Notes under the pieces: generated by a model
The model's input: the letters and a program-made list of their open reading frames with translations, nothing else
Database searches by the model: none
Told to the model about the DNA's origin: nothing
DNA from: Polytrichum commune
Taxonomy: Eukaryota; Streptophyta; Polytrichopsida; Polytrichales; Polytrichaceae
DNA: 64,000 bases
Assembly (NCBI GenBank): GCA_950295325.1
Contig: OX485806.1
Span: forward strand, 9,238,001 to 9,302,000
Reading direction: 5' to 3'
Shown here: one piece after another, positions 286 to 22,066 of the stretch
Position numbering within the stretch: the first letter of the stretch is position 1
How the letters are laid out: every line of letters begins with the position of its first letter
Made by a program: the position numbers and the translations under genes

Positions 286-296
286 TAGCATTGATG
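286..296. repeat. Left 11-bp target-site duplication of the MULE
   Basis: TAGCATTGATG is found here and again exactly at 22056-22066, each copy touching an inverted-repeat terminus that begins GGA. Mutator-superfamily elements make 9-11 bp duplications, so the length fits. The pair defines the insertion boundaries of the whole 21.8-kb element. Confidence 0.88.
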
Positions 297-345
297 GGAA
301 ACTTAGTAGTGTGAGCGTAGAGCGGAGAGCGGAGAGCGGTGATTG
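297..345 (+). repeat. Left terminal inverted repeat of the MULE
   Basis: Starts GGAAAC. After a short variable stretch it holds TGTGAGCGTAGA followed by tandem GAGAGCGG words. The complement of 22008-22055 reads GGACGACACAGC, then the same TGTGAGCGTAGA and GAGAGCGGAGAGCGG. Homology continues in patches to about 407. The tandem GAGAGCGG words could be subterminal transposase-binding repeats; that is inference. Confidence 0.85.
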
Positions 346-831
346 GAGAGCGAAAAATTTAGATTTTATTGGGTAATTTTAGGAGAAGCCGTGCCTATTT
401 CCGTGGATTTAGGGGTAGTTTGAATTCAATTTGTTGGAAAGGCACCCCATTCCCGTGGACATAAGAAACCTGAATTGTTCGAGAAACCAACGGATCCTAT
501 AGGTGTGGAAGATTCCATTTGTTCTCAAACATCCTAGAGTCTAGGTTTGAAATGTTTCATATTAAATTAGGGTTGATGTCACCACTTGAAATCAAACATA
601 AACATATGATGAACAATGTAAGTGTACATAAATGATTTCCACAAAGTGATAAATTGCGCCAAGTAGGTTGGGTAATATTTCCAAGTACGATTAGATTTCA
701 ATAATTATCATACACAAAATATTTGATTGGCCGAGAAAATGTTCATGAAGATAGGTGCCAAACTCAAGACTTACAAAAATGTGTATTCAGTTCAAGTAGC
801 TATATACAACCATCCTCTACTTTATTTCCAT

Positions 832-1341
832 CTACAGCCTATCGGCCGGGCATGTCCAATATGGGTAAAATGATTCAAAGATCATGCCATATAACTCCTC
901 CGCACACCAACAACTCTCCAATTCATCCCTTAGTTTAGCCAATGAACGCAATGATAAATCCCCCAAGTCCGACATAAGAATCCTCCGCGAAATTTTTGAG
1001 CTGACGTGGCGGCTACGAGAGAACCACATCATGTTCATTTGAAATTGTGTGATGAGGTTATGTTCGCGTGGCAAACACACCCTTAAGTCTACATTGGGAC
1101 CCATGGCGTATTCATATTGAGCCAAACGAAGAGCATTGTACTCCACACTTTTATCCACAACATTTTTCCATGATTTGCAACATAGCCTCAAATCGTGGAT
1201 TAGCGACAAACGACGTTGGGTGTCCAATACCGTCTCCCGGCCCGTATCCACATTTGCGGCACCCACCAATAAGTTGGGAACTAAGACTGACAATTGTACA
1301 TATAGGTCCAGATGTAGTACGAGTGGCTCCATGACGTGCAA
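832..1341 (-). CDS. Hypothetical protein in the MULE left arm, possible F-box-like fragment
   Basis: A 169-aa frame opening at ATG 1341, near the left terminus. The segment LCCKSWKNVVDKSVEYNALR followed by LAQYEY resembles the tail of plant F-box-type domains, where a CxSW..x(V/I)D..xEW.ALR pattern is common. The N-terminal half (about residues 1-45) is hydrophobic and not obviously F-box. No neighbouring exon was found. It may be a captured host fragment, as in Pack-MULEs, or a degraded element gene. The frame is long for such AT-rich DNA, but function is not established. Confidence 0.35.
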   Translation of the reverse strand: MHVMEPLVLHLDLYVQLSVLVPNLLVGAANVDTGRETVLDTQRRLSLIHDLRLCCKSWKNVVDKSVEYNALRLAQYEYAMGPNVDLRVCLPREHNLITQFQMNMMWFSRSRHVSSKISRRILMSDLGDLSLRSLAKLRDELESCWCAEELYGMIFESFYPYWTCPADRL

Positions 1342-1449
1342 TTAGAGCGATCTTCCACAACCTGATGAACAAATGATGAGGTACACAAATGAACTCAAAA
1401 ATCAAGTAAATTTTGGCCAAGAACTTAACCTCAACCCAAAGACTCAAGA

Positions 1450-1807
1450 ATGCTTAAAATTCACAAGAGCCTTAAACTCACACACAAGAGCATACAATTT
1501 GAAATTTTTGGCCAAGGCCTCAACCCCATATACAAGAGCTAACAATCACAAACTTTTGGCCAATGCCTTAACCTCACACACAAGAGCCACTAATCTGATA
1601 TGTTTGGCCAAGGCTTTAACCTCATATACAAGAGCCCACAATCTGAAATATTTGGCCAAGGCCTTAACATCACATTCAAAAGCCTACAATCTGAAATTGT
1701 TGGCCAAGGCCTTAACCTCACACATAAGAGCCAACAATCTGAAATTTTTGGCCAAGGTCTCAAGACCATATACAAGAGCTAACAATCTGAAATTTTTGGG
1801 CAAGGGC
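1450..1807. repeat. 48-bp minisatellite, left block
   Basis: About seven tandem copies of a 48-bp unit containing the overlapping palindromes TTGGCCAA and AAGGCCTT, with CTCACACACAAGAGC and CAATCTGAAATTTTTGG in between. Because 48 is a multiple of three, frames stay open on both strands, giving spurious 16-residue periodic ORFs. The block stops exactly at the solo LTR and resumes at 2761, so it was once continuous with the larger block. The order of unit variants matches units in the right block, which implies higher-order duplication. Confidence 0.92.
1803..1807. repeat. Left 5-bp TSD of solo LTR
   Basis: AGGGC immediately precedes the TG terminus at 1808 and is repeated at 2761-2765 immediately after the CA terminus. 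Five-bp duplications are typical of LTR-retrotransposon integrases. Confidence 0.9.
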
Positions 1808-2760
1808 TGTCGCAACCCTTGCTAGGTCCCTTAACAATCTTGCCAATTTTCGTTTCTAGCAAAGGTTACGAGCGCTAACCCTTCGCATTCCGCCATGCTA
1901 ATGGATAGCTCCTCTTACCCCGGACCAATAATTCATAAGAGGGAACCAACCCTCCTACTTTGCTTTCGGGACTCACCCCTTAATCGGTAACCCATTTCCC
2001 CAATGTGGACTTCCATCCATGGAAGTCCAATCCTATGTTGATCATCGCATTGCCGGAGCAACACTACAACAACCCGAAGCATACTAGGCAACTATGGCCT
2101 CACAATAGGCCAAAGCCCATGGAGGCCTTGCCGTTCGGCCTCGGGTGGGTGAGGCCACACCACCTCACCCATATAAGCCTCTAGGACTCTACGCGGGGCC
2201 CCTACCCCACCGTCAACCAACCTCTTGTCTCTCCACCAAGAGTTGGGGCCAAGTGGACATTTTCCTTTAGCCGCTGGGCCTAGAAGCCCCCACAGCTTCA
2301 GACCATCATAACTTCCTTGTATGATGTCTGATGCTAACACTTGACCACTCCATCTTCATCTACGCTTCACGTAGATGCCGATGGACTCCTCACTTGCCCC
2401 ATTCGGGCAAGTCTTGAGGAAGTTATGCCTGTTTGAACCTTGGCAGTCCCGGGAATCACTCCCAGGCACTGCTGTACCAGGGCGCTGTCCCGGGACAGCG
2501 CCCCACTCAAATGGCCATAACTCCTAGCTCACACCTCCGATTGAGGTGTTCTTGAGCATTCTAGAATCACCACGCCATGAGCTACGCATAGCTCATGGCC
2601 TTACCCTTGTGCCTCCTAGTCTCCGTGGGTGGGAGGCGTTCACCCACACTAGGATCACTTGGGCCCTCTCACCAACGGCGCCACAAGTCCCGGGTGTCAC
2701 TCCGGGGTCCCCCTTGTGCCCACGGTGTTTCGGGCACTCCTCATGGAGAGGTGCGCGACA
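1808..2760. mobile_element. Solo LTR nested in the minisatellite
   Basis: A 953-bp segment with no similarity to the surrounding 48-bp repeat. It starts TGTCGC and ends GCGACA, which are the TG...CA and short inverted termini of an LTR, and AGGGC is duplicated at both sides. A TATA-like ATATAA stands at 2171-2176. No internal retrotransposon coding region, primer-binding site or second LTR is present, so this is the product of LTR-LTR recombination. GC content is clearly higher than in the flanking array. Whether the family is Gypsy or Copia cannot be told from the LTR alone. Confidence 0.88.
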
Positions 2761-4205
2761 AGGGCTTAACCCCACACACAAGAGCCACTAATCTGATATG
2801 TTTGGCCAAGGCCTTAACCTCATATACAAGAGCCTACAATCACAAATTTTTGGCCAAGCCCTTAACCTCGTATAGAAGAGGATACAATCACAAATTTTTG
2901 GCCAAGGCCTTAACCTCACATACAAGAGGCTACAATAACAAGTTTTTGGCCAAGGCCTCAACCCCATATACAAGAGCTAACAATCACAAACTTTTGGCCA
3001 ATGCCTTAACCTCACACACAAGAGCCACTAATCTGATATGTTTGGCCAAGGCTTTAACCTCATATACAAGAGCCCACAATCTGAAATATTTGGCCAAGGC
3101 CTTAACATCACATTCAAAAGCCTACAATCTGAAATTGTTGGCCAAGGCCTTAACCTCACACACAAGAGCCAACAATCTGAAATTTTTGGCCAAGGCCTCA
3201 ACACCATATACAAGAGCTAACAATCTGAAATTTTTGGGCAAGGGCTTAACCTCACACACAAGAGCCCCTAATCTGATATGTTTGGCCAAGGCCTTAACCT
3301 CACATACAAGAGGCTACAATAACAAATTTTTGGCCAAGGCCTCAACCCCATCTACAAGAGCTAACAATCACAAACTTTTGGCCAATGCCTTAACCTCACA
3401 CAGAAGAGCCACTAATCTGATATGTTTAGCCAAGGCTTTAACCTCATATACAAGAGCCCACAATCTGAAATATTTGGCCAAGGCCTTAACATCACATTCA
3501 AAAGCCTACAATCTGAAATTGTTGGCCAAGGCCTTAACCTCACACACAAGAGCCCTCAATCTGAAATATTTGGCCAAGGCCTTAACATCACATTCAAAAG
3601 CCTACAATCTGAAATTGTTGGCCAAGGCCTTAACCTCACACACAAGAGCCAACAATCTGAAATTTTTGGCCAAGGCCTCAACACCATATACAAGAGCTAA
3701 CAATCTGAAATTTTTGGGCAAGGGCTTAACCTCACACACAAGAACCACTAATCTGATATGTTTGGAGAAGGCCTTAACATCACATACAAGAGCAACTAAT
3801 CTGATATGTTTGGCCAAGGACTTAACCTCACAAAGAAGAGCCTACAATCTAAAAATTTTGGCCAAGGCCTTAACCTCATATACAAACCATAGAATCTGAA
3901 AGTTGTGGCCAAGGCCTTAACCTCACATACAAGAGCATAGAATATGAAATTTTTGGGCAACGGCTTAACCTCACACGCAAGAGCCAACAATCTGAAATTT
4001 TTGGCCAAGGCCTCAACACCATATACAAGATCTAACAATCTGAAATCTTTGGGCAAGGGCTTAACCTCACACACAAGAGCCACTAATCTGATATGTTAGG
4101 CCAAGGACTTAACCTCACAAACAAGAGCCTACAATCTGAAATTTTTGGCCAAGGGCTTAACCTCAAAAACAAGAGCATAGAATCTGAAATTTTTGGGCCA
4201 TTAAA
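2761..4205. repeat. 48-bp minisatellite, right block
   Basis: About 30 tandem units of the same 48-bp repeat as 1450-1807. A 434-codon open frame runs through 23 of them, but minus-strand and other plus frames are also open across many units, which is expected for a stop-free repeat and argues against coding. Variant units recur in the same order (for example units 5-10 and 13-20 of the plus frame), giving a higher-order repeat of about 8 units. Units decay after about 3890, where small indels break the frame. Confidence 0.92.
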
Positions 4206-4619
4206 AGTGAGAGCATCCAAAAATCCTAACCAAATCAACACCTGAATCCAACTCAAGAATAAGGACTACACATCTAGGGCAATCGGAAGTGAGAGCATTC
4301 ACCTGAAACAAGGTTGACAATCTCGTAGAAACAGAGTTGAGAGTCCGAGCACTCAATAGGTTGGAGTAGCACAATGCTTGGGCTTGAAAGTATTACATGC
4401 CGAAATAGGAGAGCACGTGCTTGGAGTGGCACAATGTGAAAAGGGTGCACGGGGATGTGACCATAATTGGAAGGAGATATGCATTCAATGCATTACATTA
4501 ATGGGATGAATCTGAACTTAACTAGGGGATCTTAACTAATATTGCACATAATGACAGAGGATGTAATATATAACATTATGGCTATAATGCCACATGCAAA
4601 AATCTGGGATGAACCCCAT
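4206..4619. other. Spacer between the minisatellite and the palindrome array
   Basis: Unique AT-rich sequence inside the MULE. A short phrase, GAGAGCA followed by TC(C/A), recurs a few times, but no gene or element is recognisable. Confidence 0.5.
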
Positions 4620-6710
4620 GCCCGGGGACCCTCTCGGAACCGAGAGGGTTCCCAAATAGTCGAACCCCTTGACAAATATGAACCCCAAAAAGAAACCCCC
4701 AACCACTGGATCAAACCCCCAACCACTGGACCACTGGATGAAACCCCCAACCACTGGAACCTCTCGAAACCGAGAGGGTCCACAAGTAGTCCAACCACTC
4801 AAGTTGACAAAATCTAATTACCTACCTAATCCACATACATTCATGTAAAAATGAATACTATCAGTACTATCCCCACCTTGACCCTCTCGGTTCCGAGAGG
4901 GTCTCACTGTCAAGGATACACAAACGTTTTCAACCTAAGTACCTACGTAATGCACATACATGCACATACAGAAGGCACATAATAGTTGTGAAAATCTGGT
5001 CCTTACTATCACAACCTACACCCGAGAGGGTATCACTCTCATGCATATACAAAAATTTCAAACGTAAGTACCCACCTAGACCACATACATTCACATCCAC
5101 AAGGCACATCATAGTTGTAAAAATCTGGTCCATACTATCCCAACATTGACCCTCTCGGTTCCGAGGGGGTGGGCCTCTTATGAATACACAAACATTAACA
5201 ACCTAAGTACCTACCTAGTCCACATACATACACATAGACAAGCCAAGTCATAGTTGTCAAAATCTGGTCCATACTATCCCCAACTTGACCCTCTCGGTTC
5301 CGAGAGGGTCTCACTAACATGCACCCAAAATCAATTTCATTATTACTAACTAGATGGACCACATACATACACATAGACAAGCCAAATCATAGTTGTCAAA
5401 ATCTGGTCCATACTAACCCCAAATTCACCCTCTCGGTTCCGAGAGGGTCTCACTCTCATGCACACACAAAAGTTTTGAACATGAATAACTAGTTGGTCCA
5501 AATACATTCACATAAACAAGCCAAATCATAGTTGTCGAAATGTGGTCCACACTATCCCAACCTCGACCCTCTCGGTTCCGAGAGGGTCTCCCTCTCATGC
5601 ACTCGCAAACATTTTCAACATGAATTACTAGTTGGTCCACATACATTCACATACAAAAGCCACATCATAGTTTTCAAAATCTGGTCCATACTAAACCCAT
5701 CCTAGACACTGTCGGTTCCGAGAGGGTCTCATCCTAGTGCACAAACAAAACTTTTCAACATGAACTAATAATTGGTCCACAAACAAACATATACACAAGG
5801 CAAATCATAGTTGACAAAATCTGGTCCATACTGTCCCCAACTTGACCCCATACGGTTCCGAGAGGGTCTCACTCTCATGCACCCAAAATCAATTTCATTA
5901 TGACTAACTAGATGGACCACATACATACACATAGACAAGCCAAATCATAATTGTCAAATTCTGGTCCATACTAACCCCAAATTCACCCTCTCGGTTCTGA
6001 GAGGGTCTAACACTCATGCACACACAAAAGTTTTGAACATGAATAACTAGTTGGTCCAAATACATTCACATACACAAGCCACATCAGAGTTGTCGAAATC
6101 TAGTCCACACTATCCCAACCTCGACCCTCTCGGTTCCGAGAGGGTCTCCCTCTCACGAACCCACAAACAATTTCAACATGAATTACTAGTTGGTCCACAT
6201 ACATTCACAAACAAAAGCCACATCATAGTTTTCAAAATTTGGTCCATAGTAAACCCATCCTAGACCCTCTCGGTTCCGAGAGAGTCTCATCCTAGTGCAC
6301 ACACAAAAATTCTCAACATGAATTACTAAGTTGTCCACAAAGAAACATATACACAAGCCACATCATAGTTGTCAAAATCTGGTCCACACTATCCCCACCT
6401 TGACCCTCTCGGTTCCGAGAGGGTCTCACTCTCTTGCAAACACAAAACTTTTGAAGATGAATAACTAGTTGGTCCAAATACATTCACATACACAAGCAAA
6501 ATCATAGTTGTCAAAATCTGGTCCTTAATATCCCCACCTTGACCCTCTGGGTTCCGAGAGGGTCTCCCTTTCATGCACCCGCGAACAATTTCAACATGAA
6601 TAACTAGCTGGTCCACATACAGTCACATACTGAAGCCACATCATAGTTGTGAAAATCTGGTCCATACTAAAACCATCCTAGACCCTCTCGGTTCCGAGAG
6701 GGTCGGCCAC
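4620..6710. repeat. Palindrome array, distal block (downstream of accessory gene)
   Basis: About 16 units of a ~140-bp tandem repeat. Each unit has a 22-bp palindrome (arms ACCCTCTCGG and CCGAGAGGGT around a TT centre) and a spacer containing TGGTCCACATACATTCACAT and TTGTCAAAATCTGGTCCATA. All spacers run in the same direction. The palindrome is usually perfect while spacers vary. The copy at 4628-4649 has an AA centre, the inverted state. The first units are shorter and more degenerate than the rest. Confidence 0.93.
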
Positions 6711-6883
6711 TTATGGACATAAGATAAGTAATTGAAAGAGAGATTGAAAGGTAAAAAACACATAAGATGATGGAGTTAAATGGGGTTTTAAAAAGGGCAA
6801 TGGAAATTCAACAAGGGAATTTGTAAGTAACTCAAACATAAAGAAAACATAGAGAATAGGGGTTCCAAACGCACCAGGTGTAG
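6711..6883. other. Unique 3' flank of the accessory gene
   Basis: AT-rich sequence between the stop codon at 6884 and the distal palindrome block; on the minus strand it would be the 3' UTR. Nothing else is recognisable. Confidence 0.4.
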
Positions 6884-9800
6884 TCAACAACTAGGACTAT
6901 CATGTCTATCACTAACCTCGCCCTGGTCGGCTTCTATGTCTAGGAAATCAAATATTACTTTGTTGAGAGGGCGAATGCGACGAGGAGGTGGGGAAGGTGC
7001 TTCTGCCAAAAGATTGGCAAGGTCAGCGGCATACGAAGGGAGCTGGAAGGTTGTCGAAGGGGTTGCAAACATGTCCGCATTAAGGACACGAATGGGACTT
7101 TCATTTTGAACTCTGCACAGTCAGAACGGAAAACCAAAACAAATTAGTATAAGCCAAAAAATCCGATAGAAGAAGATACAAATACAAGCAAGTAAGAAGA
7201 CAAGAACGAACTTACGCACACAGCAAATCGAAATTGCGCTTGGCCATCTTCCGGGGAGGAGGAGCAAAAACGGATCCTCGTTGTGGGGCAGCATGCTGAG
7301 AAGTGTGTTCTTGCTCAGTTTCACGCATAGGAAGGAGGATGGACTTAAAGATGTCGAGATCGGACTCAAGCGCCATAATATGGCGTTGAATGGAACGACA
7401 TGCAATCACGGAACCTCCTATAAAAACAAAATGGCATAAGATGAGCATAAGGGAATGAATGAGAAATGAAGTAAAGAAAAAAAACAAGGAAATGAAACAA
7501 TGAAAAGAAAAACCGACCAAGGCCACATTGCCAATTCATAATAATGTCGTCCTTATCCGTGAGGGCGGAGAAAATGATGGAGAAGAACTCCGGGCGCTTC
7601 TCACGAGCACCTCTCCAAGGGACACCGTCTTCCCTCATCGACTGGTTTTTGGCATCCGCAAAACTGTTGAGCCAACCATCTCTCTTCAAATTGTAACCCA
7701 TGTCTTCGAAGTCCGAAGTCCGGACATTCCAAACCGAATCATTGCGTACGAGAACCTTGATGAAGAACTTGCGAGTCTGTAAGAAATGAAAATGGTAGTA
7801 TTAGGAAAACAAAATGGAAGAGCAAAAAAGAGAAAACTAGAAATAGATGAGGCAAGAAAGACATACCAAATCAGCTGGATTAGTAGGCGATTGGAGGTCG
7901 AGGTCATTCATCCCAAACCAGTCTTCGGCAACGTAGAAATCCTCTGTGTGTGCCCAGTTATGTATGGATCTAGAGACGTCAGGATCGGCGGCGTGTGCAA
8001 AGACAAGGACGCCGTCATCATGGAGGTTTGCGTTAGCAAATGCAAATAGAACCTCAAAGTAAGAGGAAGAACGCTTGTTCCATTGAGGAACATCGGACGA
8101 AGATGACGAGATGTCAGGAACACATAGGTTCTCCGGCACATCTGCGAAGAGAAGATCAAGCCCTGTGTGCACCTTAGGTTTGGTATTAGGACGAATACGA
8201 CCCGCTCCCACCTGGAAATAAAAAAGCCAAAAAAAAATATAAGAAACCAATTGGTGAAATAGAATGAATGAACGAGAAAACAACAGAATGTCGCACAAAC
8301 CTTAGTAAGAAATTCCTGGATGCGACGGTAAGCCGGGGGGGCAACCTTGGACCGCATGAGTTCCTCTATGAGCTCCCCCATATCGACATTCTCAAGCAAA
8401 GAGAGAGAAGACGACTTCTCCGAAGAAGTTGCGGAGGTATCCGGAGCGACGACTTTCCTTTTGCGTGGCACGGAGGGAATGGTGACACCGCTATGGGAAG
8501 GAGCAGGAACATGGTCTCGAGAAGGGACAGAAGGAGTGGCCGTTGGACTTCCGACAACTGTGGTAGCGGGAGTGCGCTGAACAGAGGCCTTGGTGAAAGA
8601 ACGGGTGGAAACTTGACTAGAAGCTACCCTCTTACCCTTGCCTTTGGCCTTCACCGGTGCTACCTCTTTGTCAATGGCGGCAGGAGTAAGATTCTCATCT
8701 TCATCTGGCTCTTCCTCCAATTCAATGACCTCAGGGGCAGCGGAAACAAGGCTCATGTAGAGGGGTTCTTCAACTTCTGGAACAAATCCACGAGAACAAT
8801 CCAGGTACCAACCACCAGCGACCAAATGGACGTGTGGAAATTTTGCAAGTTGCATGGGCGTGTACACAAAAAGGTTGGAGTTGTCATCGACCCACTCGTG
8901 AAGGAAAGACGGCAATGACGAAGCTGGAAGAGCATTCTTAACGACAAGCTCACGGTGAATGTACCTACGAAGTGAAGAAAATTAGAACAAAAGAATGTAG
9001 TGAAAAGAAACGAAGATATGAAGCACGAAAGAAAAAGAAAAAATGATTACCAGTAAGCAACGCGCTTGATAGCAATTGGTCCTTCCTCGAACTCCATGAG
9101 ATTGAGCCCTTTGGTGAACTTGAAGTCACCTTTGTCATCAAAATATACTCGAAATGCCTTGTCCCACAAAATGAGCCTCCAATGCTCGACAAAATGAGCA
9201 GGTGGGAAAAGGTCCTCCATAGAAACCCAGTTAATGTCGATGGAGCATTCATTTTCAAATGAGGCAATCTCACCCTCAACACCTTTCTCCAACTAAGATA
9301 ACAGAAAAACAAAGTAAGTCCAAGATGGAAAGCCGACACTAAAAATCTCAACTTTAGTACCATCCTAGTCCACATACAATGACATACAAAAGCCACATCA
9401 AGGTTGTCAAAATCTGGTCCATACTAAAACCATCCTAGACCCTCTCGGTTCCGAGAGGGTCTCATCCTAGTGCACACACAAAACTTCTCAACATGAATAA
9501 CTAGTTGTTTCAAAAACAGGTCCATACTAAAACAATCCTAGACCCTCTCGGTTCCGAGAGGGTTCGTTGCTAGTGCAGAAACAAGAAATTTCAAAATGAA
9601 TAACTGGCTTGTCCACATACATTCACATATACAAGCCACATCATAGTTATTAAAATCTGGTCCATACTATTCCCAACTTGATCCTCTCGGTTCCGAGAGG
9701 GTCTCATTCTAATGCAATCACAATCCATTTAAACATGAATTACTAGTTTGTCCACATACATTCACATACAAAAGCCACATCAAGGCTGTCAAAATCTGGT

Positions 9801-12800
9801 CCATAACAAAACCATCATAGACCCTCTGGGTTCCGAGAGGGTCTCATCCTAGTGCACAGCCAAAAAATTTCAAAATGAATAACTAGCCGGTCCACATACA
9901 GTCACATACTCAATCCACATCATAGTTGTCAAAATCTGGTCCATACTAAAACCATTGTAGACCCTCTCGGTTCCGAGAGGGTCTCATCCTAGCGAACACA
10001 CAAAACTTCTGAACATGAATTACTAATTGGTCCACAAACATTCATATACACAAGCCACCTCATAGTTGTCAAAATCTGGTCCTTACTATCCCCACCGAGA
10101 GGGTCTCATCCTAGTGAACACACAAAACTTCTGAACATGAATTACTAATTGGTCCACAAACATTCATATACACAAGCCACCTCATAGTTGTCAAAATCTG
10201 GTCCTTACTATCCCCACCGAGAGGGTCTCATCCTAGTGAACACACAAAACTTCTGAACATGAATTACTAATTGGTCCACAAACATTCATATACACAAGCC
10301 ACCTCATAGTTGTCAAAATCTGGTCCTTACTATCCCCACCTTGGCCCTCTCGGCTCCGAGAGGGTCTCACTCTCATGCACACACAAACAATTTCAACATG
10401 AATAACTAGCTGGTACACAAACACTCACATACTGAAGCCACATCATAGTTGTCAAAATCTGGTCTTTAATATCCCCAAGTTGACACTCTCGGTTCCGAGA
10501 GGGTCTCCCTCTCATGCACCCGCAAACAATTTCAACATGAATTACTACTTGCTCCACATACATTCAAATACAAAAGCCATCCTAGACCCTCTCGGTTCCG
10601 AGAGGGTCTCATCCTAGTGCACGCACAAAACTTCTCAACATGAATTACTAATTGGACCACAAACATTCATATACACAAGCCACATCAGATGTTGTCAAAA
10701 TCTGGTCCATACTAAAACCATACTAGACCCTCTCGGTTCCGAGAGGGTCTCAACCTAGTGCACACACAAAACTTCTCAACATGAATAACTAGCTGTTTCA
10801 AAATCAGGTCCATACTAAAACAATCCTAGACCCTCTCGGTTCCGAGAGGGTTCGTTGCTAATGCACAAACAAGAAATTACAAAATGAATAACTGGCTTGT
10901 CCACATACACTCACATATACAAGCCACATCCTAGATTTTAAAATCTGGTCCATACTATCCCCAACTTGACCCTCTCGGTTCCGAGAGGGTCTCACTCTAA
11001 TGCACCCACAAGCAATTTCAACATGAATTACTAGTTGGTCCACATACATTCACATACAAAAGCCACATAAAGGTTGTCAAAATCTGGTCCATAACAAAAC
11101 CATCCTAGACCCTCTCGGTTCCGAGAGGGTCTCACTCTCATGCACACACACGAAGTTTGAACCTAAGTTGCTACCTTGTCCATATACATTCATATACACA
11201 AGTCACATCAGAGTTGTCAAAATCTGGTCCACACTATCCCCACCTTGACCCTCTCGGTTCCGAGAGGGTCTCCCTCTCATGCACACGAAAACAATTTCAA
11301 CATGAATTACTAGTTGGTCCACATACATTCACATACAAAAGCCACATCATATTTTTCAAAATCTGGTTGATACTAAACCCATCCTAGACCCTCTCGGTTC
11401 CGAGACGGTCCCACTGTCATGCACACACACTCAATATCATGATGATTGCCTAGATGGTCAACAAACATTCATAGACACAAGCCACATCAGAGTTGTCAAA
11501 ATCTGGTCCACACTATCCCAACCTTGACCCTCTCGGTTCCGAGAGGGTATCACTCTCGTGCACCCACAAATTAGTTTCAACCTAAGTACCTACATAGTCC
11601 ACATACATTCACATACACAAGCCACATCATAGTTTCCAATATCGCCATCCTTGACCCTCTCGGAACCGAGAGGGTCTCACCTCAGTGCATTCACAAAACT
11701 GTTCACCCAAAGTCCTACCTAGTCCACATACATAATTCCCACCATATGGTACACAAATCCAGCACGTAGACCCTCTTGGTTCCGAGATGGTCTCAATATT
11801 GTGCGTACACAATAAATTTCACCATAAATACCTGCCTTTTACATATACATACCCCATTATTGTCAAAATCTGGTACAAAACACCTCAAGGTATACCCTCT
11901 CGGTTCCGAGAGGGTATCATTCTAGTGAACACACTACAAATTTCAACCTATGTACCTACCTAGACCACATACTATCACATACACAATGCACATCATACTT
12001 GTTAAAATCTGGTCCAAATTGTCACAACCTAGACCCTCTCGGTTCCGAGAGGGTCTAGCTCTTATGCACCCACAAGAATTTTGAACCAAAGTCCACACAC
12101 CTTGTCCACACACTTTCACATACCTTGACCCTCTCGGTTCCCCACCTTGACCCTCTCGGTTCCGAGAGGGTCTCATCCTAGTGCAAACACAAAACTTCTC
12201 AACATGAATAACTAGCTTGTCCACATACAATCACATACTCAAGCCACATCATAGTTGTGAAAATCTGGTCCTTAATATCCCCACCTTGACCCTCTCGGTT
12301 CCGAGAGGGTCTCCCTCTCATGCACCCACAAAACTTTTGAACCTAAGTTTCTACCTTGTCCACACACATTCACATACACGAGCCAAATCACAGTTTTCGA
12401 AATTTGGTACATACTATCCCCAACTTGACCCTCTCGGTTCCGAGAGGGTCTCCCTCTCATGCACCCGCAAACAATTTCAACATGAATTACTACTTGGTCC
12501 ACATACATTCAAATACAACAGCCATATCATAGTTTTCAAAATCTGGTCGATACTAAACCCATCCTAGACCCTCTCGGAACCGAGAGGGTGTCATCCTAGT
12601 GCACACACAAAACTTCTCAACATGAATTACTAATTGGTCCACAAACATTCATATACACAAGCCACATCATAGTTGTCAAAATCAGGTCCATACTATCCCC
12701 ACCTTGACCCTCTCGGTTCCGAGAGGGTCTCCCTCTCATGGACACACAAAGAATTTCAACATGAATAACTAACTGGTCCACGAACAATCACATACTGTAG

Positions 12801-15800
12801 CCACATCATAGTTGTGAAAATCTGGTCCATACTAAAACCATCCTTGACCCTCTCGGTTCCGAGAGGGTCTCATTGTAGTGCACAAACAAGAAATTTCAAA
12901 ATGAATAACTAGCTGGTCCACATACTGTCATATACTCAATCCACATCATAGTTGTCAAAATTTGGTCTTTAATATCCCCAACTTGACCCTCTCGGTTCCG
13001 AGAGGGTCTCCCTCTCATGCACACGAAAACAATTTCAACATGAATTACTACTTGGTCCACATACATTCAAATACAAAAGCCATATCATAGTTTTCAAAAT
13101 CTGGTCGATACTAAACCCATCCTAGACCCTCTCGGTTCCGAGAGGGTGTCATCCTAGTGCACACACAAAACTTCTCAACATGAATTACTAATTGGTCCAC
13201 AAACATTCATATACACAAGCCACATCATAGTTGTCAAAATCAGGTCCATACTATCCCCACCTTCACCCTCTTGGTTCCGAGAGGGTCTCACTCTCATGGA
13301 CACACAAACAATTTCAACATGAATAACTAAGTGGTCCACGAACAGTCACAAACTGTAGCCACATCATAATTGTGAAAATCTGGTCCATACTAAAACCATC
13401 CTTGACCCTCTCGGTTCCGAGAGGGTCTCATTCTAGTGCACAAACAAGAAATTTCAAAATGAATAACTAGCTGGTCCACATACTGTCATATACTCAATCC
13501 ACATCATAGTTGTCAAAATCTGGTCTTTAATATCCCCAACTTGACCCTCTCGGTTCCGAGAGGGTCTCCCTCTCATGCACCCGCAAACAATTTCAATACT
13601 TGGTCCACATACATTCAAATACAAAATCCACATCATAGTTGTCAAAATCAGGTCCATACTATCCCCACCTTCACCCTCTTGGTTCCGAGAGGGTCTCACT
13701 CTCATGGACACACAAACAATTTCAACATGAATAACTAAGTGGTTCACGAACAGTCACATACTGTAGCCACATCATAATTGTGAAAATCTGGTCCATACTA
13801 AAACCATCCTTGACCCTCTCGGTTCCGAGAGGGTCTCATTCTAGTGCACAAACAAGAAATTTCAAGATGAATAACTAGCTGGTCCAGATACAGTCACATA
13901 CTCAATCCACATCATAGTTGGCAAAATCTGGCTCTTATTATCCCCACCTTGACCCTCTCGGTTCCGAGAGGGTCTCATTCTTGTGCACACACAAAACTTC
14001 TCAACATGAATTACTACTTGGTCCACATACATTCAAATAGAAAAGCCATATCATAGTTTTCAAAATCTGGTCGATACTAAACCCATCCTAGACCCTCTCG
14101 GTTCCGAGAGGGTGTCATCCTAGTGCACACACAAAACTTCTCAACATGAATTACTAATTGGTCCACAAACATTCATATACACAAGCCACATCATAGTTGT
14201 CAAAATCAGGTCCATACTATCCCCACCTTGACCCTCTCGGTTCCGAGAGGGTCTCCCTCTCATGGACACACAAAGAATTTCAACATGAATAACTAACTGG
14301 TCCACGAACAATCACATACTGTAGCCACATCATAGTTGTGAAAATCTGGTCCATACTAAAACCATCCTTGACCCTCTCGGTTCCGAGAGGGTCTCATTGT
14401 AGTGCACAAACAAGAAATTTCAAAATGAATAACTAGCTGGTCCACATACTGTCATATACTCAATCCACATCATAGTTGTCAAAATTTGGTCTTTAATATC
14501 CCCAACTTGACCCTCTCGGTTCCGAGAGGGTCTCATTCTTGTGCACACACAATACTTCTCAACATCAATAACTAGCTGGTCCACACACATTTACATTCAA
14601 AATCCACATCATAGTTGTCAAAATCTGGCCAATACTATCATAACCTACACACTCTCGGTTCCGGGAGGGTCCGCCTCTTAGCACCCACACAAAATTTTGA
14701 ACCAAAGTTTCTTCCTTGTCCACACACATTCACATACACAAGCCATATCATAGTTTTCAAAATCCGGTCCATACTCTCTTATCCTCGAACCTCTCGGTTC
14801 TCAGAGGGTCGGCCTCTAAGCACCCACACAAAACTTTGAACCAAAGCTGCTACCTTGTCCACACACATTCACATACACAAGCCATATCATAGTTTTCAAA
14901 ATCTGGTCCATACTATCTTCACCTAGACCCTCTCGGTTCCGAGAGGGTCGGCCTCTAAGCACCCACACAAAATTTTGAACCTAAGTTTCTTCCTTGTCCA
15001 CACACATCCACATACACAAGCCATATCATAGTTTCAAAATTTGGTCCATACTATCCCAACCTCGACCCTCTCGGTTCCGATAGGGTCGTCCCACACAAAA
15101 TTTTGAACCTAAGTTTCTACCTTGTCCACACATTCACATACACAAGCCATATCGTAGTTTTCAAAATCTGGTCCATACTCTCTTGACCTCGAACCTCTCG
15201 GTTCCGAGAGGGTCGGCCTCTTATGCACCCACAAAAATTTTGAACCAAAGTTTCTTCCTTGTCCACACACATTCACATACACAAGCCATATCATAGTTTT
15301 CAAAATCCGGTCCATACTCTCTTATCCTCGAACCTCTCGGTTCTCAGAGGGTCGGCCTCTAAGCACCCACACAAAACTTTGAACCAAAGCTGCTACCTTG
15401 TCCACACACATTCACATACACAAGCCATATCCTAGTTTTCAAAATCTGGTCCATACTATCTTCACCTAGACCCTCTCGGTTCCGAGAGGGTCGGCCTCTA
15501 AGCACCCACACAAAATTTTGAACCTAAGTTTCTTCCTTGTCCACACACATCCACATACACAAGCCATATCATAGTTTCAAAATTTGGTCCATACTATCCC
15601 AACCTCGACCCTCTCGGTTCCGATAGGGTCGTCCTCTAAGCACCCACACAAAATTTTGAACCTAAGTTTCTACCTTGTCCACACATTCACATACACAAGC
15701 CATATCGTAGTTTTCAAAATCTGGTCCATACTCTCTTGACCTCGAACCTCTCGGTTCCGAGAGGGTCGGCCTCTAAGCACCCACACAAAATTTTGAACCT

Positions 15801-16948
15801 AAGTTTCTTCCTTGTCCACACACATTCACATACACAAGCCATATCATAGTTTCAAAATTTGGTCCATATTATCCCAACCTCGACCCTCTCGGTTCCGATA
15901 GGGTCGGCCTCTAAGCACCCACAAAACTTGTGAACCTAAGTTTCTACCTTGTCCACACACATTCCCATACACAAGCCACATCATAGTTGTCAAAATCACA
16001 TACACAACTCACCTCTAAAGTGAGAATTGATGTATACACAACCGCCCCAAGTCCACTCTCGGAACCGCGCCCACTACACACTCGGAACCGCACCCACCAC
16101 ACTATCGGAAACCTAGTTCCTTCTCAAAGACCTCCAACTAGTTCAGAAGTCGCCGCTTTTTAGTCATAACCTACGACCTCAACCCAAAACCCGAGATGGT
16201 CTGGCTCTCGTTCATACACAAATAATATGAACATATTATCCTGTCTTTTCCACATACCTATAGACACACACCGCACCTCTTCCTCGTCAACATGTGTTTC
16301 ACCCAATACCCTCTCGGTCTGTCCCTAGTGCATACCAACCAACCCAACCCTCTCGGTTCCTAGTGTGTCGTCCCCTTGTGCATTCCCAAAGATTTCCAAG
16401 TTATCGCACTACCTACGTAACACATATTACAACCTATTCAAGTGAAAACCCCACGTACGCGCAAGTTTCTTGTTTTCAAAATGCAGACCCATATCTGAAT
16501 TGCCCTATTGTCTGCAAGTCTTCTTCTTTATTTAGAGTTTTGAATTTCCTTTGTCTTGTTCCCATAAACCTATATCTTTAAGTGCCCCTTGTGCATATAT
16601 CCTCCACGACAAACTTACAGTAATCATCGAATTCTCCCTTCTCTCCTCGCGAGACCCGCTCTGATTTGAACTGTTCGGATGCTTGCTCTCTTCCATAGAT
16701 ATTGCCTGTGAACCACTGTCCTCCGCTTCTTCGTCTATCGATATCAGATTCAAGCCTCCCTTGTCCACTGCACACGTGTTCTGTGAGTCTGTAGGGGTCC
16801 CTCTTCCTTCTATGCACGTTTCCTCCTTCTTCTTTAGTTCTCTCCGTCTCCTCTGTTTCGAATTGCTGAAACTAGTCCCTCCCTTTCTCTTCTTCCGCTT
16901 CTTTCCTGGATCTATTGTGGAATCTGTAATGTGCTCTGGTTCCTTCAT
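6884..16948 (-). CDS. MULE accessory gene: N4/N6 methyltransferase-like protein with giant array-filled intron
   Basis: Exons on the minus strand: 16948-16619, 9292-9051, 8964-8301, 8211-7867, 7776-7518, 7417-7216, 7112-6884. All introns are GT-AG and the last five are 86-103 bp. Phases agree throughout, giving 756 codons plus stop. Linking exon 1 to exon 2 (phase 0 on both sides, GTAAGT donor) is inference; the other six are firm. Exon 1 is basic with an NLS-like KKRKKRKGG. Residues about 111-400 are unrecognised, including an acidic and Ser/Thr/Pro-rich linker. Residues 430-635 resemble an amino-methyltransferase of beta order: LLFADVPENL (436-439 is DVPE where DPPY/SPPF is usual), then REKRPEFFSII and NWQCGLGGSVIACRS, matching the EKP and GxGxT signatures of the N4/N6 DNA methylase family. 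The altered motif IV suggests a binding rather than catalytic role. It is transcribed divergently from the transposase. Confidence 0.66.
10095..10338. repeat. 122-bp tandem duplication with half palindromes
   Basis: Two essentially identical 122-bp units start at 10095 and 10217. Each retains only the CCGAGAGGGT arm. The preceding unit (from 9960) and the following one (about 10344) have full palindromes. This is a recent local expansion after loss of the left arm. Confidence 0.85.
12540..14535. repeat. Higher-order duplications in the palindrome array
   Basis: A block of about 470 bp (12540-13010) recurs nearly identically at 14065-14535, and a related copy lies at about 13089-13560. A part of it (13241-13500) recurs at 13648-13910. 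The blocks contain several 140-bp units each, which shows that recent growth was segmental rather than unit by unit. Confidence 0.8.
14700..15785. repeat. About 542-bp segmental duplication in the array
   Basis: The stretch starting near 14700 is repeated near 15243 with almost no change, including a shared mutant palindrome CGGTTCTCAGAGGG at 14790 and 15332. Sharing a rare mutation shows duplication by descent. Confidence 0.82.
16011..16618. other. Decayed edge of the palindrome array within the intron
   Basis: Scattered half-palindromes such as CTCTCGGAACCG (about 16061) and ACCCTCTCGGT (about 16340) in otherwise unique sequence. On the minus strand it runs up to the GTAAGT donor at 16618, so it would be the 5' part of the accessory gene's giant intron. 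Confidence 0.6.
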
Positions 16949-17154
16949 GTGTGCGTCCAACTTCCCCTCTATTGCTCTCTTCTGTTCTCCCTACTCTCTG
17001 GGCAGCCTTCTCCTTCGCTCACAAAATGACCCCTTTCGTACCTCTCAGACCTATATATTACCACTGTTGAATCTTTAGGGTTTCCAATCGTTCGGTAGCC
17101 TTCCCTCTTTTTCCTTTTTTGGGGTATTTTTCTTATTCGTCCATCTCTTTATCC
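16949..17154. promoter_or_regulatory. Divergent promoter between transposase and accessory gene
   Basis: A 206-bp gap separates the two opposing start codons (ATG 17155 plus, ATG 16948 minus). A TATA-like CTATATATTA at 17050-17059 is nearly symmetric and could serve either strand. Pyrimidine-rich tracts precede the transposase ATG. Co-regulation of the two genes from this interval is inference. Confidence 0.5.
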
Positions 17155-20100
17155 ATGGCTTCCTCGTCCACAATGTCTTCTTTAACGGAAATGGTTGAGC
17201 TCCGTGCCACTGGCATGGGCATCCCCCTTCTTTTCCCCATAGATGCGCACGGTTTTGCATCTGTCTCTTCTCTGGACCTTAGTATTAGGTTTTCTTTGCA
17301 AAACAGTACAATGTGGGTCGAACGCGAGATTTATGATACTGTTACTTCTCTTTTGTCATTGTCCATTCGTGAGAATCCTAGGGTTGCCGACAGTGGCTCG
17401 TCAACGTGGGAACTCTGCGCTGGTAAATACAGGGTGTACGGACTCCCATGTCCTTGCACGAATGTATCCACGGATATCCGTACCCCTCCCCATTCCTCTG
17501 TGTCCACTTTCAATACTCCTCCCTTGGTCAAAGTTAAGACTGAGCCCGGTACGCAGACTGTCATACATCTTTCCGATTCCTCCGATGGTGATGATTCCCC
17601 CCTTTCCACTCCCATTCACAAGCCATCCCCATCCTCCGTCCGTTCCACCTTTGTTACCCCCCTTCCTCCGTCTCCTCTTCCTCCCTTTCCAGGCAAACCC
17701 CCGATTTCCATTCTTCAATGTCTACGTTCTCTTGCCTCCATGCCCGGTAGGAAGAACATCCTCAAGAAGTTGGATTATGACACCTTGCAAATTCAAGAGG
17801 TTAATTACCTGCCGCCTCGCTTTGATGGTGATCTCATGTTTGTCCTACCCCCACTCGGTGTCTCTTCCTCTCATAAGAAGGCCCAGTCCATGGACGGCAT
17901 GGACAAACGCTATGACGGCCATGTTTGGACTAAAACCCAGACCACCAATATCACCAATGACATGGGCCTTGCTTTTCGCTCCTCCTGTTGTGTTGGCCAC
18001 CTCGAATGCCAAAATCCTCTGTGCGATTACCTACAACGTGCTCATCGGACTTCCCCGGTCAATGATATTGATTTCGACGGTTTCACCAAGGAGCCCTTCC
18101 CCGTTGGTGGACCCTTGCCTCTGGGATCCACTCTAATGTGCCGGATATGTAAGGAGCCTCCCAAATGCATTGCTCCATGTCATGCCAGAATCTTCTACGT
18201 CCACGGCAAAGGCACCACTCAGCGTGCCTGTATTCATCTTGGCAACCATCATCATCCCGTCAAGGTTGGCAATTGTAGAAATAGCCAACAGCGCATCAAC
18301 TCCCTCATCGAGGAGCACGTCGAGCGAACGCCCCAAGCCACTCATAGCAAAATCGTCCTTGAAGCCAGCAAGGACCTTGTGGGTGAGTTCCTCCTCCGCA
18401 ATGATACTGATCCTCATCACCTTCTCTCGTTGGAAGAACTTGAACCAGTTTTTGATCGTTGCAAAGAGTTGAATTCCCCCCACCTCCGTAACAAGGTTAC
18501 TAGTTTCAAATACTTGCGTAGGTTAGGGGTTATGGATGGAATCGCCAAACTTCGAGGTGTCAGCAACTGGGCCTATGTCCAGCGTAATCAATTTCTGGGC
18601 CAGGGTGACGAAAAGGACAAAGTTTTCGTTTTCAAGATGTCCGAGGTTGGCCCTGGTAGTGGGGTCGACTTGGTTAAGCGTATGCAACCTGGTGGGGATC
18701 TCGAGCATGCTTGGATGATGTCTGACCATGTCAAACGCGTCGCCAAGTGGACCACCATGGCCTGCCACGTATACGACGGTACCTACCAGCGCATCATGAC
18801 CATCGCTTGCTGCGACTTCCAATCCGAGGACAAGGATGCTCAAGTTCTTTTCTGGCAGAACCTCAACCAAGTCATGGCCCGGCACGGTGTCCCACATCCA
18901 AACTTCATTGGCTTCATGGCAGACAGTGCCCAAGCCAATTGGAACGCTGTGCGAATTGTGTATGGTTCAGGAGATCCTAAAGTTCCACTGGAAGGCCGTG
19001 AGCGCACTTGTTATTTTCATTGGAAACAATCACTCGAGAAACATACAAAATCGTATATTAAACATGAGTTACAAGACCAACATAGACACCTTTGCCTTCA
19101 ATATCGGAATGCGTCGTCTATGGAAGAGGCCGAGACTAGGTACCTAGCTATCAAGGCTTGGTGGTCTTCATCGAATTGTACAAGTGAAGACGGTCTCAAG
19201 CACCTCCAGCTATGGCTTGCTTTTTGGCACTTCCGCTACCTTCAATGGGGTGGTTTCATGGAACTGGTACATCTCCCTTCTCTTTCTTTCTTGTTTTTTC
19301 CTTTCATTATTTTCATGTTTCTGTGCTCGCTCTAATACTCCATTTTTTCAATCAGGAAAAGGTATTGACCCCAGACCAGTTGGCCGAGATGCCGTCGTGC
19401 AATCTTGCGGAGTCCGTCCACAACAAGTGGCTTCAAGCCTCCGGCAACAAGGGTGGAGACCTATACGTTGCTACCGTGGACGACTACATTCGCGCCTTCT
19501 TACAAGTTGTTGCATACTTCCAATTCCTTAAAGGTGGAGTTGGCGGTGATGGTCCAAGCAAAGAAGAACTCAAGCTTAGGGGAGCTCAACGTCGAGCTCA
19601 GCGTACTGGCGACCCCACAGTATTGCAGAAGGTGTTGCTTGACATGCCTGGTGGGGAAGAATTTTGCACTCGCGATCCACACCTGGAAGGCGCCGAGGTG
19701 TTTGGATCGCAGAAGCGAAGACCGGACACTCCAATTGGCGATGATGGCGAGACCCACCGCCCCGATACCGTCAACTTCTCTCGCCCTCCCCCCGCGAAGC
19801 GCATCACTCGATCTCAACCTGTATCACTACCTATTATCATTGAGGAGTATTCCCCGTGTGTTCAAGAGGTTCAAGTGCCTTCTCCAACAGGAATTGGTTT
19901 TCAGCGTGTCACTGCCGTACAAGAAACTAAAGTAGATGTCTCTCTTTGGCATATTGCCCGTATACCCCATACCTCAGGAAAGTCTTGTTGGGCTAATCAT
20001 GCTGGCACAAAGAAGAAGTGCACCGCAAGAATCATCACCAATAATAAGAGCGTCCCTGCACCGACCTACACCGGTATGTGGCATCATTACACACTCCAAG

Positions 20101-20813
20101 CGAAGAAGCGAATGGAATTCGTCTTTTGCCCAGATGACATCGAACGTTGTGTAAAGGGCCCTCGTCGGAAATGGGTCATACCGTTCTCTGCTGATGATCA
20201 GAAACCTCCTATTCCCCCAATTTGGCCCGTCAAGATTGGGACCAACCTCACCCGTTCGGAGATCTTTGCGCTTGAAAACGCAGGTTTTCAACTCCCACCA
20301 AATGAACGCATCACACCAACTCGACTCTTCACCAATTCCGCTCCCCCACTGGATATGTCTGGAATCCGTATTCCAGACAACCCAGACTTCATCCCTCCGA
20401 CAAGATTGTCCAAGGTTGTTCGACGATCCACCAGCGCACCTTCGGCAAAGCAGAGGCAGATGGTTGCCTCTGCTGAAGCTATGCATGGTACTGTTTTGAA
20501 GTTAACAATGATCCCTCAACCGGGATTTGGTTGCATTATCACTCTGCAGTCCAAGGCAGAACCGCACCCCCCCATCTACCAAGTGACAGTCAGTTCTCTT
20601 CCAGAGTGCAATTGCGCATTTTTCTTGGATATGATTTCCAAGTTCGGCCGCAAACGAAATCCTTATCTGAATTGTAAGCATCTCTATTACATCTTCAACA
20701 AGGTTTCTAATTTGGATCTTGAAGTGAATTTGTTCATTCACACCCCGACCTTTAGCTTCAATGAAGTCAAACTCATCCTCGAAGGGGGTTTTTTGACACA
20801 TTCTACTTCCTAG
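17155..20813 (+). CDS. MULE transposase with SWIM zinc finger
   Basis: Two exons, 17155-19266 and 19356-20813, joined in phase 0 across an 89-bp GT-AG intron, encode 1189 aa with no internal stop. The start is the first in-frame ATG (MASSSTMSSL). Order: a Ser/Pro-rich acidic N-terminus; a Cys/His-rich region about residues 283-366 (CCVGHLECQNPLC, CRICKEPPKC, NHHHPV) like the GCM/WRKY-type or FLYWCH-type DNA-binding fingers of MULEs; a MULE DDE core with D541 in HVYDGTYQ, D590 in FMADSAQANWNAV and CYFHW at 619-623; a linker; and a SWIM motif CxC...CxH near 1120-1155 (ECNCAFF ... LNCKHLYYI). The third catalytic acid was not pinned. It is longer than most MULE transposases. The intact frame suggests recent activity. 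Confidence 0.9.
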
Positions 20814-20888
20814 AATTCATCTCAGCCTACCAATACATTGGGTCCTACTAGACGTGCCAATTGTGAACATCATGTGAACTCATAATTG

Positions 20889-20911
20889 TTTGCTATAATA
20901 AATAAAATTCC
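20889..20911 (+). terminator. Polyadenylation signal of the transposase
   Basis: AATAAATAAAA lies about 90 bp after the transposase stop codon and is the closest canonical AATAAA downstream. A plant 3' end here is plausible; there is no transcript evidence. Confidence 0.45.
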
Positions 20912-20984
20912 ATGCATTGTTTTTATTCCCTTCAAGATCTTTTATTACAATACAGAATTGTATCAAGCATGCATACTATGTCTA

Positions 20985-21527
20985 TCAACTATACTTCCGT
21001 GTTTCCATCCTCCTACATGCTTCGGACTTCTTTTCATCGTCCCTTCTTGATGGAGGTGGACCCGGTCGAAGCAAATCAACGTACGAAACCGTTTTATCCC
21101 TCATTCGATCCTTCAATGGACGACGATGCGGTGATAATCCTCTCATTCTATCGCGAAACGACAAAGACCTCGAAAATTCGCCTACCATCTTGACTTCCTG
21201 CTCCGTGTCGATTGCCTTGTCTTCATTCAAATTAGCCGCATCATTTGCCTCACTATTCATGCACCTTGTTTCCTCCTTCTCCTGCACATCACCTCGCCTT
21301 TTATCTTTTTTTGCATATCGTTTCTGCTCCTCCTGCATCCTCCACCTCCATGCTTGTGTGGACTGCGAAAATGGAGTGAGCTCGTAGTCATCACTATGTT
21401 GATTTCCAGCACCTATGTCATGTTTCGACGATGTATTAAAGGGAACATGGGGATCTCCTAGACTTCTAATATCTTTCTCCCATCCTAGGCCAACAAACAT
21501 GTCTCTCTCCTCTCCCATTGTGTGCAT
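20985..21527 (-). CDS. Small charged MULE protein, function unknown
   Basis: A 180-codon frame starting MHTMGEERDMFVGLGWEKD, convergent with the transposase. It is rich in Arg, Lys, Glu and Asp (for example WRMQEEQKRYAKKDKRRGD) with no transmembrane segment or known domain. A TATATAAA box (21573-21580, read on minus) stands 46 bp upstream of the ATG, and the stop is 172 bp from the transposase stop. A third gene in this position recalls the three-gene VANDAL type of MULE, though no homology is claimed. It could also be an upstream exon of a longer gene. Confidence 0.55.
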   Translation of the reverse strand: MHTMGEERDMFVGLGWEKDIRSLGDPHVPFNTSSKHDIGAGNQHSDDYELTPFSQSTQAWRWRMQEEQKRYAKKDKRRGDVQEKEETRCMNSEANDAANLNEDKAIDTEQEVKMVGEFSRSLSFRDRMRGLSPHRRPLKDRMRDKTVSYVDLLRPGPPPSRRDDEKKSEACRRMETRKYS

Positions 21528-21572
21528 ATGTCTCTACATCCGTATTGGATGCGAGTATAACTTATGTCCTCA

Positions 21573-21580
21573 TTTATATA
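21573..21580 (-). promoter_or_regulatory. TATA box of the small convergent MULE gene
   Basis: TATATAAA on the minus strand, 46 bp before ATG 21527. Spacing suits a short leader. It is the clearest TATA box inside the MULE. Confidence 0.55.
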
Positions 21581-22007
21581 CAGCTGAAGATAATATCACA
21601 AACAATAATTGTTGGAGTCCAAGTTCTAGAGTTGACTCACACATAGGACAAAGACAAAATTTATGGAATAAAAACGAAGCAAGTTGATCGTCCTTTGTAT
21701 TTTGATTGACTCATTCTTCAATTATACCAACCTCCATATAATTATTCTCATTCGTTCTTTCTTGGTTCATCATTGGTTTTATCATATACTTTTCTGTTTT
21801 ATCTTAATTTTATCTCTTCCTGATTTCCAAATGTAATGAGACCCTTTCAAATTCTGGGCCTTTTGTTTTATTTTTTGACCTAAATATTCCACGGAAATAG
21901 GTCACGATTATATTCTATTTTTAGGAGAATCTGGAATATATTGAGAATATTCGACCCTTTTTTAATACTTCTAAATTTGGTATGAGAAGTTTACTAAATT
22001 TAATTCC

Positions 22008-22055
22008 TTTCCGCTCTCCGCTCTCCACATCTACGCTCACATAGCTGTGTCGTCC
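22008..22055 (-). repeat. Right terminal inverted repeat of the MULE
   Basis: The complement begins GGACGACACAGC and contains TGTGAGCGTAGA and GAGAGCGGAGAGCGG, matching the left end. It abuts the second TSD copy. Confidence 0.85.
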
Positions 22056-22066
22056 TAGCATTGATG
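22056..22066. repeat. Right 11-bp target-site duplication of the MULE
   Basis: Exact copy of TAGCATTGATG at 286-296. The next base is G in both places, so the duplication could be read as 11 or 12 bp; 11 leaves both termini starting GGA. Confidence 0.88.

Follow-up and report, generated by a model that had tools for sequence, protein, structure and literature searches.

To our knowledge, VANC is the one transposon protein known to undo silencing by way of a motif that is spread over its own element; extra open reading frames (ORFs) also occur in other Mutator-like elements (MULEs), as exemplified by maize MURB. In the Arabidopsis VANDAL elements, VANC21 binds YAGTATTAY and the targets of VANC6 carry AGTTGTCC or AGTTGTAC, and such motifs, which differ between families, are repeated in tandem within introns and ahead of genes (PMC5735166). 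The locus presented here lies in a 64-kb window, the whole stretch of DNA analysed, on contig C4 of the 408-Mb Polytrichum commune genome (G000), to which all genome-wide counts below refer. It resembles the VANDAL/VANC system, as portrayed in PMC5735166 and PMC10398659, in that a MULE again carries an accessory gene and in that a short motif has multiplied into tandem repeats within noncoding stretches, introns among them, and varies by family together with the accessory protein. The likeness is one of architecture and does not by itself imply membership in the VANC family. Among the differences, the accessory protein falls into no Pfam family, the motif is 22-28 bp long, mostly palindromic and endowed with CpGs, unlike the YAGTATTAY and AGTTGTCC/AGTTGTAC motifs reported in PMC5735166, and the element has a short terminal inverted repeat, whereas VANDALs are described as non-TIR in PMC6446971. 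Anti-silencing, moreover, is here a prediction from sequence and analogy. Other MULEs likewise bear an extra ORF beside the transposase, but their description in the available text of PMC6446971 includes no motif array, and in the open-licence literature, as covered by titles and the beginnings of abstracts, we found neither a palindrome array nor a methyltransferase-like accessory gene described in a MULE.

Results

Boundaries of the element and its transposase

The 21.8-kb element (Table 1) is a MULE, as its transposase yields an RNase H-like structure model (pLDDT 84) and as an 11-bp target site duplication without mismatch, TAGCATTGATG, borders it on either side and occurs nowhere else in the window (286 and 22056). 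Target site duplications of MULEs measure 8-11 bp (PMC6446971). Homology to sister copies stops at 22055-22058 in six of the eight compared (L012, L016, L018, L020, L022, L024) and earlier, at 22038 and 22026, in L014 and L028. Comparison of the two ends returned one inverted match of 31 columns at 93.5% identity, with diverged outermost bases; some MULEs are missing the terminal inverted repeat. The initial annotation had recognized a divergent accessory gene together with an amplified CpG-bearing palindrome, and this layout is borne out, with the accessory gene on the minus strand (6884-9292), the transposase on the plus strand (about 17155-20813) and 63 palindrome copies; the span of 6884..20813 then assigned to the module was too narrow, however, as the element covers 297-22055 and palindromes extend to the left of 6884, on both sides of the gene.

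Table 1. Coordinates of features in and around the element, as positions in the window
Feature	Position	Strand	Remarks
Left target site duplication, TAGCATTGATG	286..296	.	11 bp
Whole Mutator-like element	297..22055	+	21,759 bp; delimited by sister-copy homology ends, target site duplication and short terminal inverted repeat
48-bp tandem repeats, two blocks (1464-1805, 2759-4196)	1464..4196	+	within element
Left palindrome block, 3' of accessory gene	4627..6704	+	tandem units from about 4865
Accessory exon 6 (C-terminal)	6884..7111	-	conserved in relatives
Accessory exon 5, GSVIACRSIQRHIMALESD, region of methyltransferase motifs I/II	7213..7415	-	profile match to adenine methyltransferases 5hek/5hfj
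Accessory exon 4	7516..7776	-	
Accessory exon 3, degenerate motif IV DVPEN	7867..8211	-	
Accessory exon 2, variable, basic PRKRK stretch	8301..8965	-	
Accessory exon 1 of window copy	9050..9292	-	sister copies have further exons 5' of exon 1
Main array, palindrome-bearing units mostly 139 bp	9407..15997	+	
Transposase exon 1, RNase H-like core and GCM-like zinc domain	about 17155..19266	+	
Transposase exon 2, starting with EKVLTPDQLAEMPSCNLAESVHNKW	19356..20813	+	
Right target site duplication, TAGCATTGATG	22056..22066	.	11 bp

In the folded transposase piece, D411, E437, C440 and H443 are invariant, and D362 nearly so, among 40 relatives. Foldseek ranks the ISCth4 transposase (three chains), a GCM domain and the P element transposase first to fifth against the model, with low TM-scores (≤0.48) and E ≤0.001 in 2 of 1350 matches. 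Pfam support is weak, with Transposase_mut matched in two of the 40 relatives (best E 0.034) and not found in a scan of the window transposase itself. L025/L026 contain a 1.9-kb transposase fragment only. At least seven copies of a transposase subfamily of 88% identity have the same score, 782.6 bits, and an open frame of 766 aa and thus hint at a recent burst, and type 3 arrays (see below) lie upstream of both copies read there (L037, L038). Elsewhere in the window, the 48-bp repeat block at 2759-4196 is nearly CpG-free (observed/expected 0.05), genes with Glyco_transf_61 and DUF4005 domains are situated to the right of the element, and a 250-bp tandem repeat occupies 62894-63871 in four copies with 91% matches.

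Palindrome arrays and motif types

The palindrome of the window element, GACCCTCTCGGTTCCGAGAGGGTC (type 1), is present in 63 window copies at up to 5 mismatches (4627 to 16346), 30 of which are exact, at a spacing of mostly 139-140 bp; its exact form occurs 505 times genome-wide (339 + 166), and the reversed, uncomplemented control not once. When 59 units are aligned, the palindrome columns average 97% and the remaining columns 82%, and in the unit consensus of 140 columns CpG occurs just twice, both times inside the palindrome. Outside the palindromes, CpG observed/expected ratios in the two window arrays are as low as 0.21 and 0.23, as compared with 0.55 to the right of the element and 0.75-0.84 across its two genes, and each window palindrome nevertheless keeps 1.85-1.89 CpGs.

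Related elements carry other motifs. Type 1b, CACCCTCTCGG..CCGAGAGGGTG, has 660 exact copies genome-wide (none of the control) and is arranged in units of 95-108 bp. The type 3 motif reads GAGGCCTCGGATCCGAGGCCTC, type 1d (element C5_18.2) is an imperfect palindrome, CCTCTCGGAACCGAGACC, and type 1h (C1_65.5) a half-site, CCTCTCGGAATC. In C3_43.1, ACCCTCTCGGAATCGAGAGGGT stands in the repeat consensus, with two copies at up to 4 mismatches within the 1.6 kb read. Types 1 and 1b have a 22-bp palindrome core in common without detectable likeness of the remaining unit: once the palindrome is cut out, the score between type 1 (window, L009) and type 1b (L017, L014) units is reached by 71 to 272 of 300 shuffles, as against 0 of 300 for type 1 versus 1d and 1h units. 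Palindromes are 95-98% conserved as opposed to 60-81% for their flanks, the flank values being lowered by ungapped measurement, and the selection of copies that differ from the motif at no more than 5 or 6 positions somewhat favouring the palindrome in the conservation and CpG figures. CpG ratios of the array flanks amount to 0.35 for type 1b, 0.46-0.55 for type 3 and 0.49 for type 1d, and the CpG contrast between palindrome and flanks is strong in types 1 and 1b alone, because the flanks of types 3 and 1d barely differ from the level to the right of the element (0.55).

Dyad symmetry is present in types 1, 1b, 2 and 3, as it would be if the palindromes acted as RNA or single-stranded DNA hairpins, whether as a small-RNA source, a decoy, or a hotspot of replication or recombination. 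Compensatory change speaks against this: among 160 type 1 palindromes there are 3 complementary double changes, each at the outermost pair and against 2.8 expected, none occurs in 214 type 1b or 127 type 3 palindromes, and C1_65.5 retains a half-site only. As the arms show no co-variation within arrays, we discarded an RNA hairpin function and regard hairpin action at large as very improbable.

A separate, divergent MULE family with a transposase of about 45% identity stands at L021 (G000:C4:5022309-5032308) beside type 2 palindromes, GTTTGGGTCGANCGACCCAAAC, and has an accessory gene of its own, at 25-46% identity per exon. We had considered type 2 as a motif of elements with a 97%-identical transposase, and dropped this assignment; L021 holds a separate element beside type 2. 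The type 2 arrays at L015, L022 and L030 are assumed to come from the L021 family, and type 2 is excluded from the concordance count below. At L015 (C6_19.1) the type 2 array adjoins an A-type transposase, with no accessory gene in the DNA read, and at L030 (C3_43.1) three type 2 palindromes lie 3' of the accessory gene. Another palindrome, GGGCGCTGTCCCGGGACAGCGCCC or its core, occurs once or twice, and not as an array, near accessory or transposase copies at L011, L012, L029, L031 and L041.

Structure of the accessory gene and selection on it

The accessory gene of the window consists of six minus-strand exons, divergent from the plus-strand transposase, and is truncated relative to its sister copies, which have extra 5' exon pieces (U0, U2, U3 and U4, about 390 residues). 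A tblastn search for U0-U4 at a relaxed cut-off found none within the window element, the best match in the window (E 0.022, at 48054) lying outside it. We define the N-half as U0-U4 plus exon 1 (about 470 residues) and the C-half as exons 2-6; of the former the window copy thus retains just exon 1, about 80 residues. In L009 the array also fills the intron that separates U4 from exon 1, and loss of the 5' exons from the window copy would be accounted for by deletion from one repeat to another. A basic PRKRK stretch, which we take to be nuclear-localisation-like, is present around exon 2 in several relatives as well. Many of the accessory exon matches listed, often with stops, are concentrated at about 41-59 Mb of contig C4.

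The gene is under purifying selection between lineages, with dN/dS of 0.08-0.30 in all 11 half-comparisons of more distant copies; near-identical copies, with few changes, give 0.12-0.65 (0.39-0.65 in five of six half-comparisons). The N-half returned no recognised domain from Pfam, NCBIfam, PHROGs, PDB profiles or phage tblastn, the sole row of the PDB profile search (E 0.56) being an unrelated protein. A GNHRLxAW stretch had led us to suspect a ParB/sulfiredoxin-like domain there, and this candidate was rejected, ParB having no match in Pfam, NCBIfam, PHROGs, the PDB profile search or phage tblastn.

Methyltransferase likeness of the C-half

When a profile of seven C-halves is compared with the PDB, the only matches up to E 10 are the adenine-specific DNA methyltransferases 5hek/5hfj (labelled DpnA, E 0.0013), which we take to be beta-class enzymes, and the matched stretch surrounds motif I. 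In PHROGs, two of three scanned C-halves match methyltransferase families (E 0.0065-0.36) plus one family of unknown function, and the divergent third C-half and the N-half have no match; among 16 phage records found by tblastn (E 0.04-9), 9 are methylases or methyltransferases, 6 other or hypothetical proteins and 1 unannotated. The methyltransferase-like fold proposed in the initial annotation is therefore sustained in part, by weak PDB-profile, PHROGs and phage matches, and finds no counterpart in Pfam, where the joined accessory protein reaches no family above cut-off; a structure model of exons 3-4 (pLDDT 45.5) is too low in confidence for fold assignment. Overall, the C-half appears to resemble beta-class DNA methyltransferases weakly but repeatedly.

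Active enzymes carry a motif IV of the form [DNS]PP[YFW]. An accessory protein that methylates the palindromes as an active DNA methyltransferase would fit the motif I glycines (GxG region), retained in six of the seven aligned proteins, the profile match to adenine methyltransferases and the purifying selection on the C-half between distant copies. Its catalytic motif IV is nevertheless degenerate in all seven, reading D[VI]PEN in six and LQFPDG in the divergent seventh, and we consider marking of the palindromes by an active enzyme the least probable of the explanations weighed here. The C-half probably represents a degenerate, non-catalytic methyltransferase-like domain, akin to beta-class N6-adenine DNA methyltransferases in the C-terminal stretch around motif I and different from them in its motif IV and in its fusion to a long N-half with no recognised domain.

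Reassortment of modules and co-segregation of motif and N-half

The transposase, the two halves of the accessory gene and the array are combined differently from one element to the next, and so behave as reassorting modules. Over 4 kb, the window element matches the type 1b copy C5_50.4 in its 3' part at 97.2% DNA identity, and yet the accessory N-halves of C5_10.96 (type 1) and C5_50.4 differ at a dS of 1.2; in the two type 1b copies, the C-half exons are 50-67% identical to those of the window. A-type N-halves, which accompany types 1 and 1b, C3_43.1, C5_18.2 and C1_65.5, are 78-99% identical to one another, and type 3 elements have B-type N-halves at 59-69% to A. Three elements, two of type 1b and C3_43.1, join B-like C-halves to an A-type N-half and motif. 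In AU tests, the C-half data reject the N-half grouping (p 1.3e-6) and the N-half data marginally reject the C-half split (p 0.045-0.050).

The co-variation of palindrome and protein across families, which the initial annotation had put forward as a check, holds at the sequence level for the N-half and not always for the transposase or C-half. This lends its proposal partial support. Motif family (CTCTCGG-type, A, versus GGCCTCGGATCC, B) and N-half type coincide in 10 of the 10 elements for which both were read, a sample of two motif families in which A takes in the imperfect palindrome of C5_18.2, the half-site of C1_65.5 and the few-copy C3_43.1, a thin case without which the count is 9 of 9. 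The concordant elements are C5_10.96, C1_37.0, C5_50.4, C6_24.8, C3_43.1, C5_18.2 and C1_65.5 for A, and C5_45.1, C1_39.9 and C3_35.7 for B; the motif family is at odds with the C-half in three of the ten and with the transposase in two. The window element and C6_12.4, placed by exon 1 only, agree as well (A-type with A motif), and the B-like N-halves of C1_46.8 and C4_33.6, which have no known motif, stand outside the count. Left out of the typing were arrays whose 5' accessory exons were not seen, namely C7_7.65 (type 1), C1_24.6 (1b), C6_19.1, C4_5.0, C1_34.5 and C3_8.7 (type 3) and C7_39.4, the last with two half-site units as in C1_65.5 and an A-like C-half. At L027, the accessory gene and array were assigned by orientation to the transposase at C1:39897781(-) rather than to that at C1:39912116.

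Of the accessory loci compared on contigs C1-C3, 6 of the 13 in class A and none of the 10 in class B have an exact type 1 palindrome no more than 10 kb away (Fisher p 0.019), the loci being drawn from the matches listed of a total of 267 and the palindromes being cluster representatives of the 92 listed on these contigs. Four class-A-like loci known by exon 4 only (C1:33716804, C2:878632, C3:42844047, C3:55169117) were left out of this test; none is near a palindrome by eye, and counting them gives 6 of 17, a weaker result. In eight 5-kb pieces around accessory genes (L029-L036), an array is absent from L032 and from L033, also in an extra 1.6 kb on the 5' side of the latter (L043); L029 has none within its piece and one farther out (L041).

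Multicopy sites within an element are a classical transposase feature, and the main array ends about 1.2 kb ahead of the transposase gene, so that the palindromes could be transposase binding sites, like the subterminal repeats of other DNA transposons. Reassortment argues otherwise, as C3_35.7 pairs an A-type transposase core (94%, with an intermediate N-terminus) with the type 3 (B) motif, and C1_65.5 pairs a B-type transposase N-terminus (81-82% to type 3, 51% to type 1) with the A motif. The arrays also sit in accessory introns, and between the outermost palindromes of the window and the ends of the element there are 4.3 kb and 5.7 kb. We therefore judge transposase binding improbable.

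Because array and N-half are neighbours in the typed elements, linkage could also produce the co-segregation, the palindromes then being a fast-evolving satellite that travels with the adjacent N-half, as recombination breaks fall elsewhere, and that has no protein partner. Arrays do lie beside and inside N-half introns (L009, L013, L019, L035), and a break between array and N-half is seen in none of the ten elements, few breaks having been sampled. Against linkage alone, the palindrome stays conserved while the unit flanks turn over, and its CpGs are kept amid strong depletion in types 1 and 1b. Furthermore, A-type palindromes are placed after exon 3 of B-like C-halves in two type 1b elements, at 6246, 6782 and 6993 between exons 3 and 4 in L019 and at 8203, 8739 and 8950, 3' of exon 3, in L013 (three each, with 0-5 mismatches). 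We hold linkage without recognition to be doubtful.

Discussion

Since the motif family co-segregates with the N-half, that half is the candidate motif reader, and we consider it reasonably likely that it recognises the palindrome. In the mechanism we propose, the accessory protein would act on the array of its own element: in the full-length protein the N-half would recognise the motif, probably in dimeric form where the palindrome is full, and the degenerate methyltransferase-like C-half would be the effector, acting on chromatin or on DNA methylation. Binding at the many sites in introns and in the intervals separating the genes could then coat the element and counter silencing along its length, a VANC-like action by a different protein. 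If the proposed motif recognition is right, the accessory protein would work like VANC. We infer binding, dimerisation, loss of catalysis and anti-silencing as steps of this account, and to the account as a whole, an array read by its own accessory protein and silencing thereby countered, we would give even odds at best.

In its broadest form, the proposal is that sequence-specific anti-silencing has evolved in plant MULEs a second time and independently, as a system in which an exchangeable N-half reads a family-specific palindrome, the C-half is a domesticated dead DNA methyltransferase, and the motif is changed by swapping gene halves; we put its probability at roughly one third (0.33). If it is true, the use of another protein to the same end would make motif amplification with a private reader a recurrent transposon strategy. 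The reassortment of modules points to the protein half that would read DNA, and the N-half may possibly provide a swappable reader for targeted epigenome editing.
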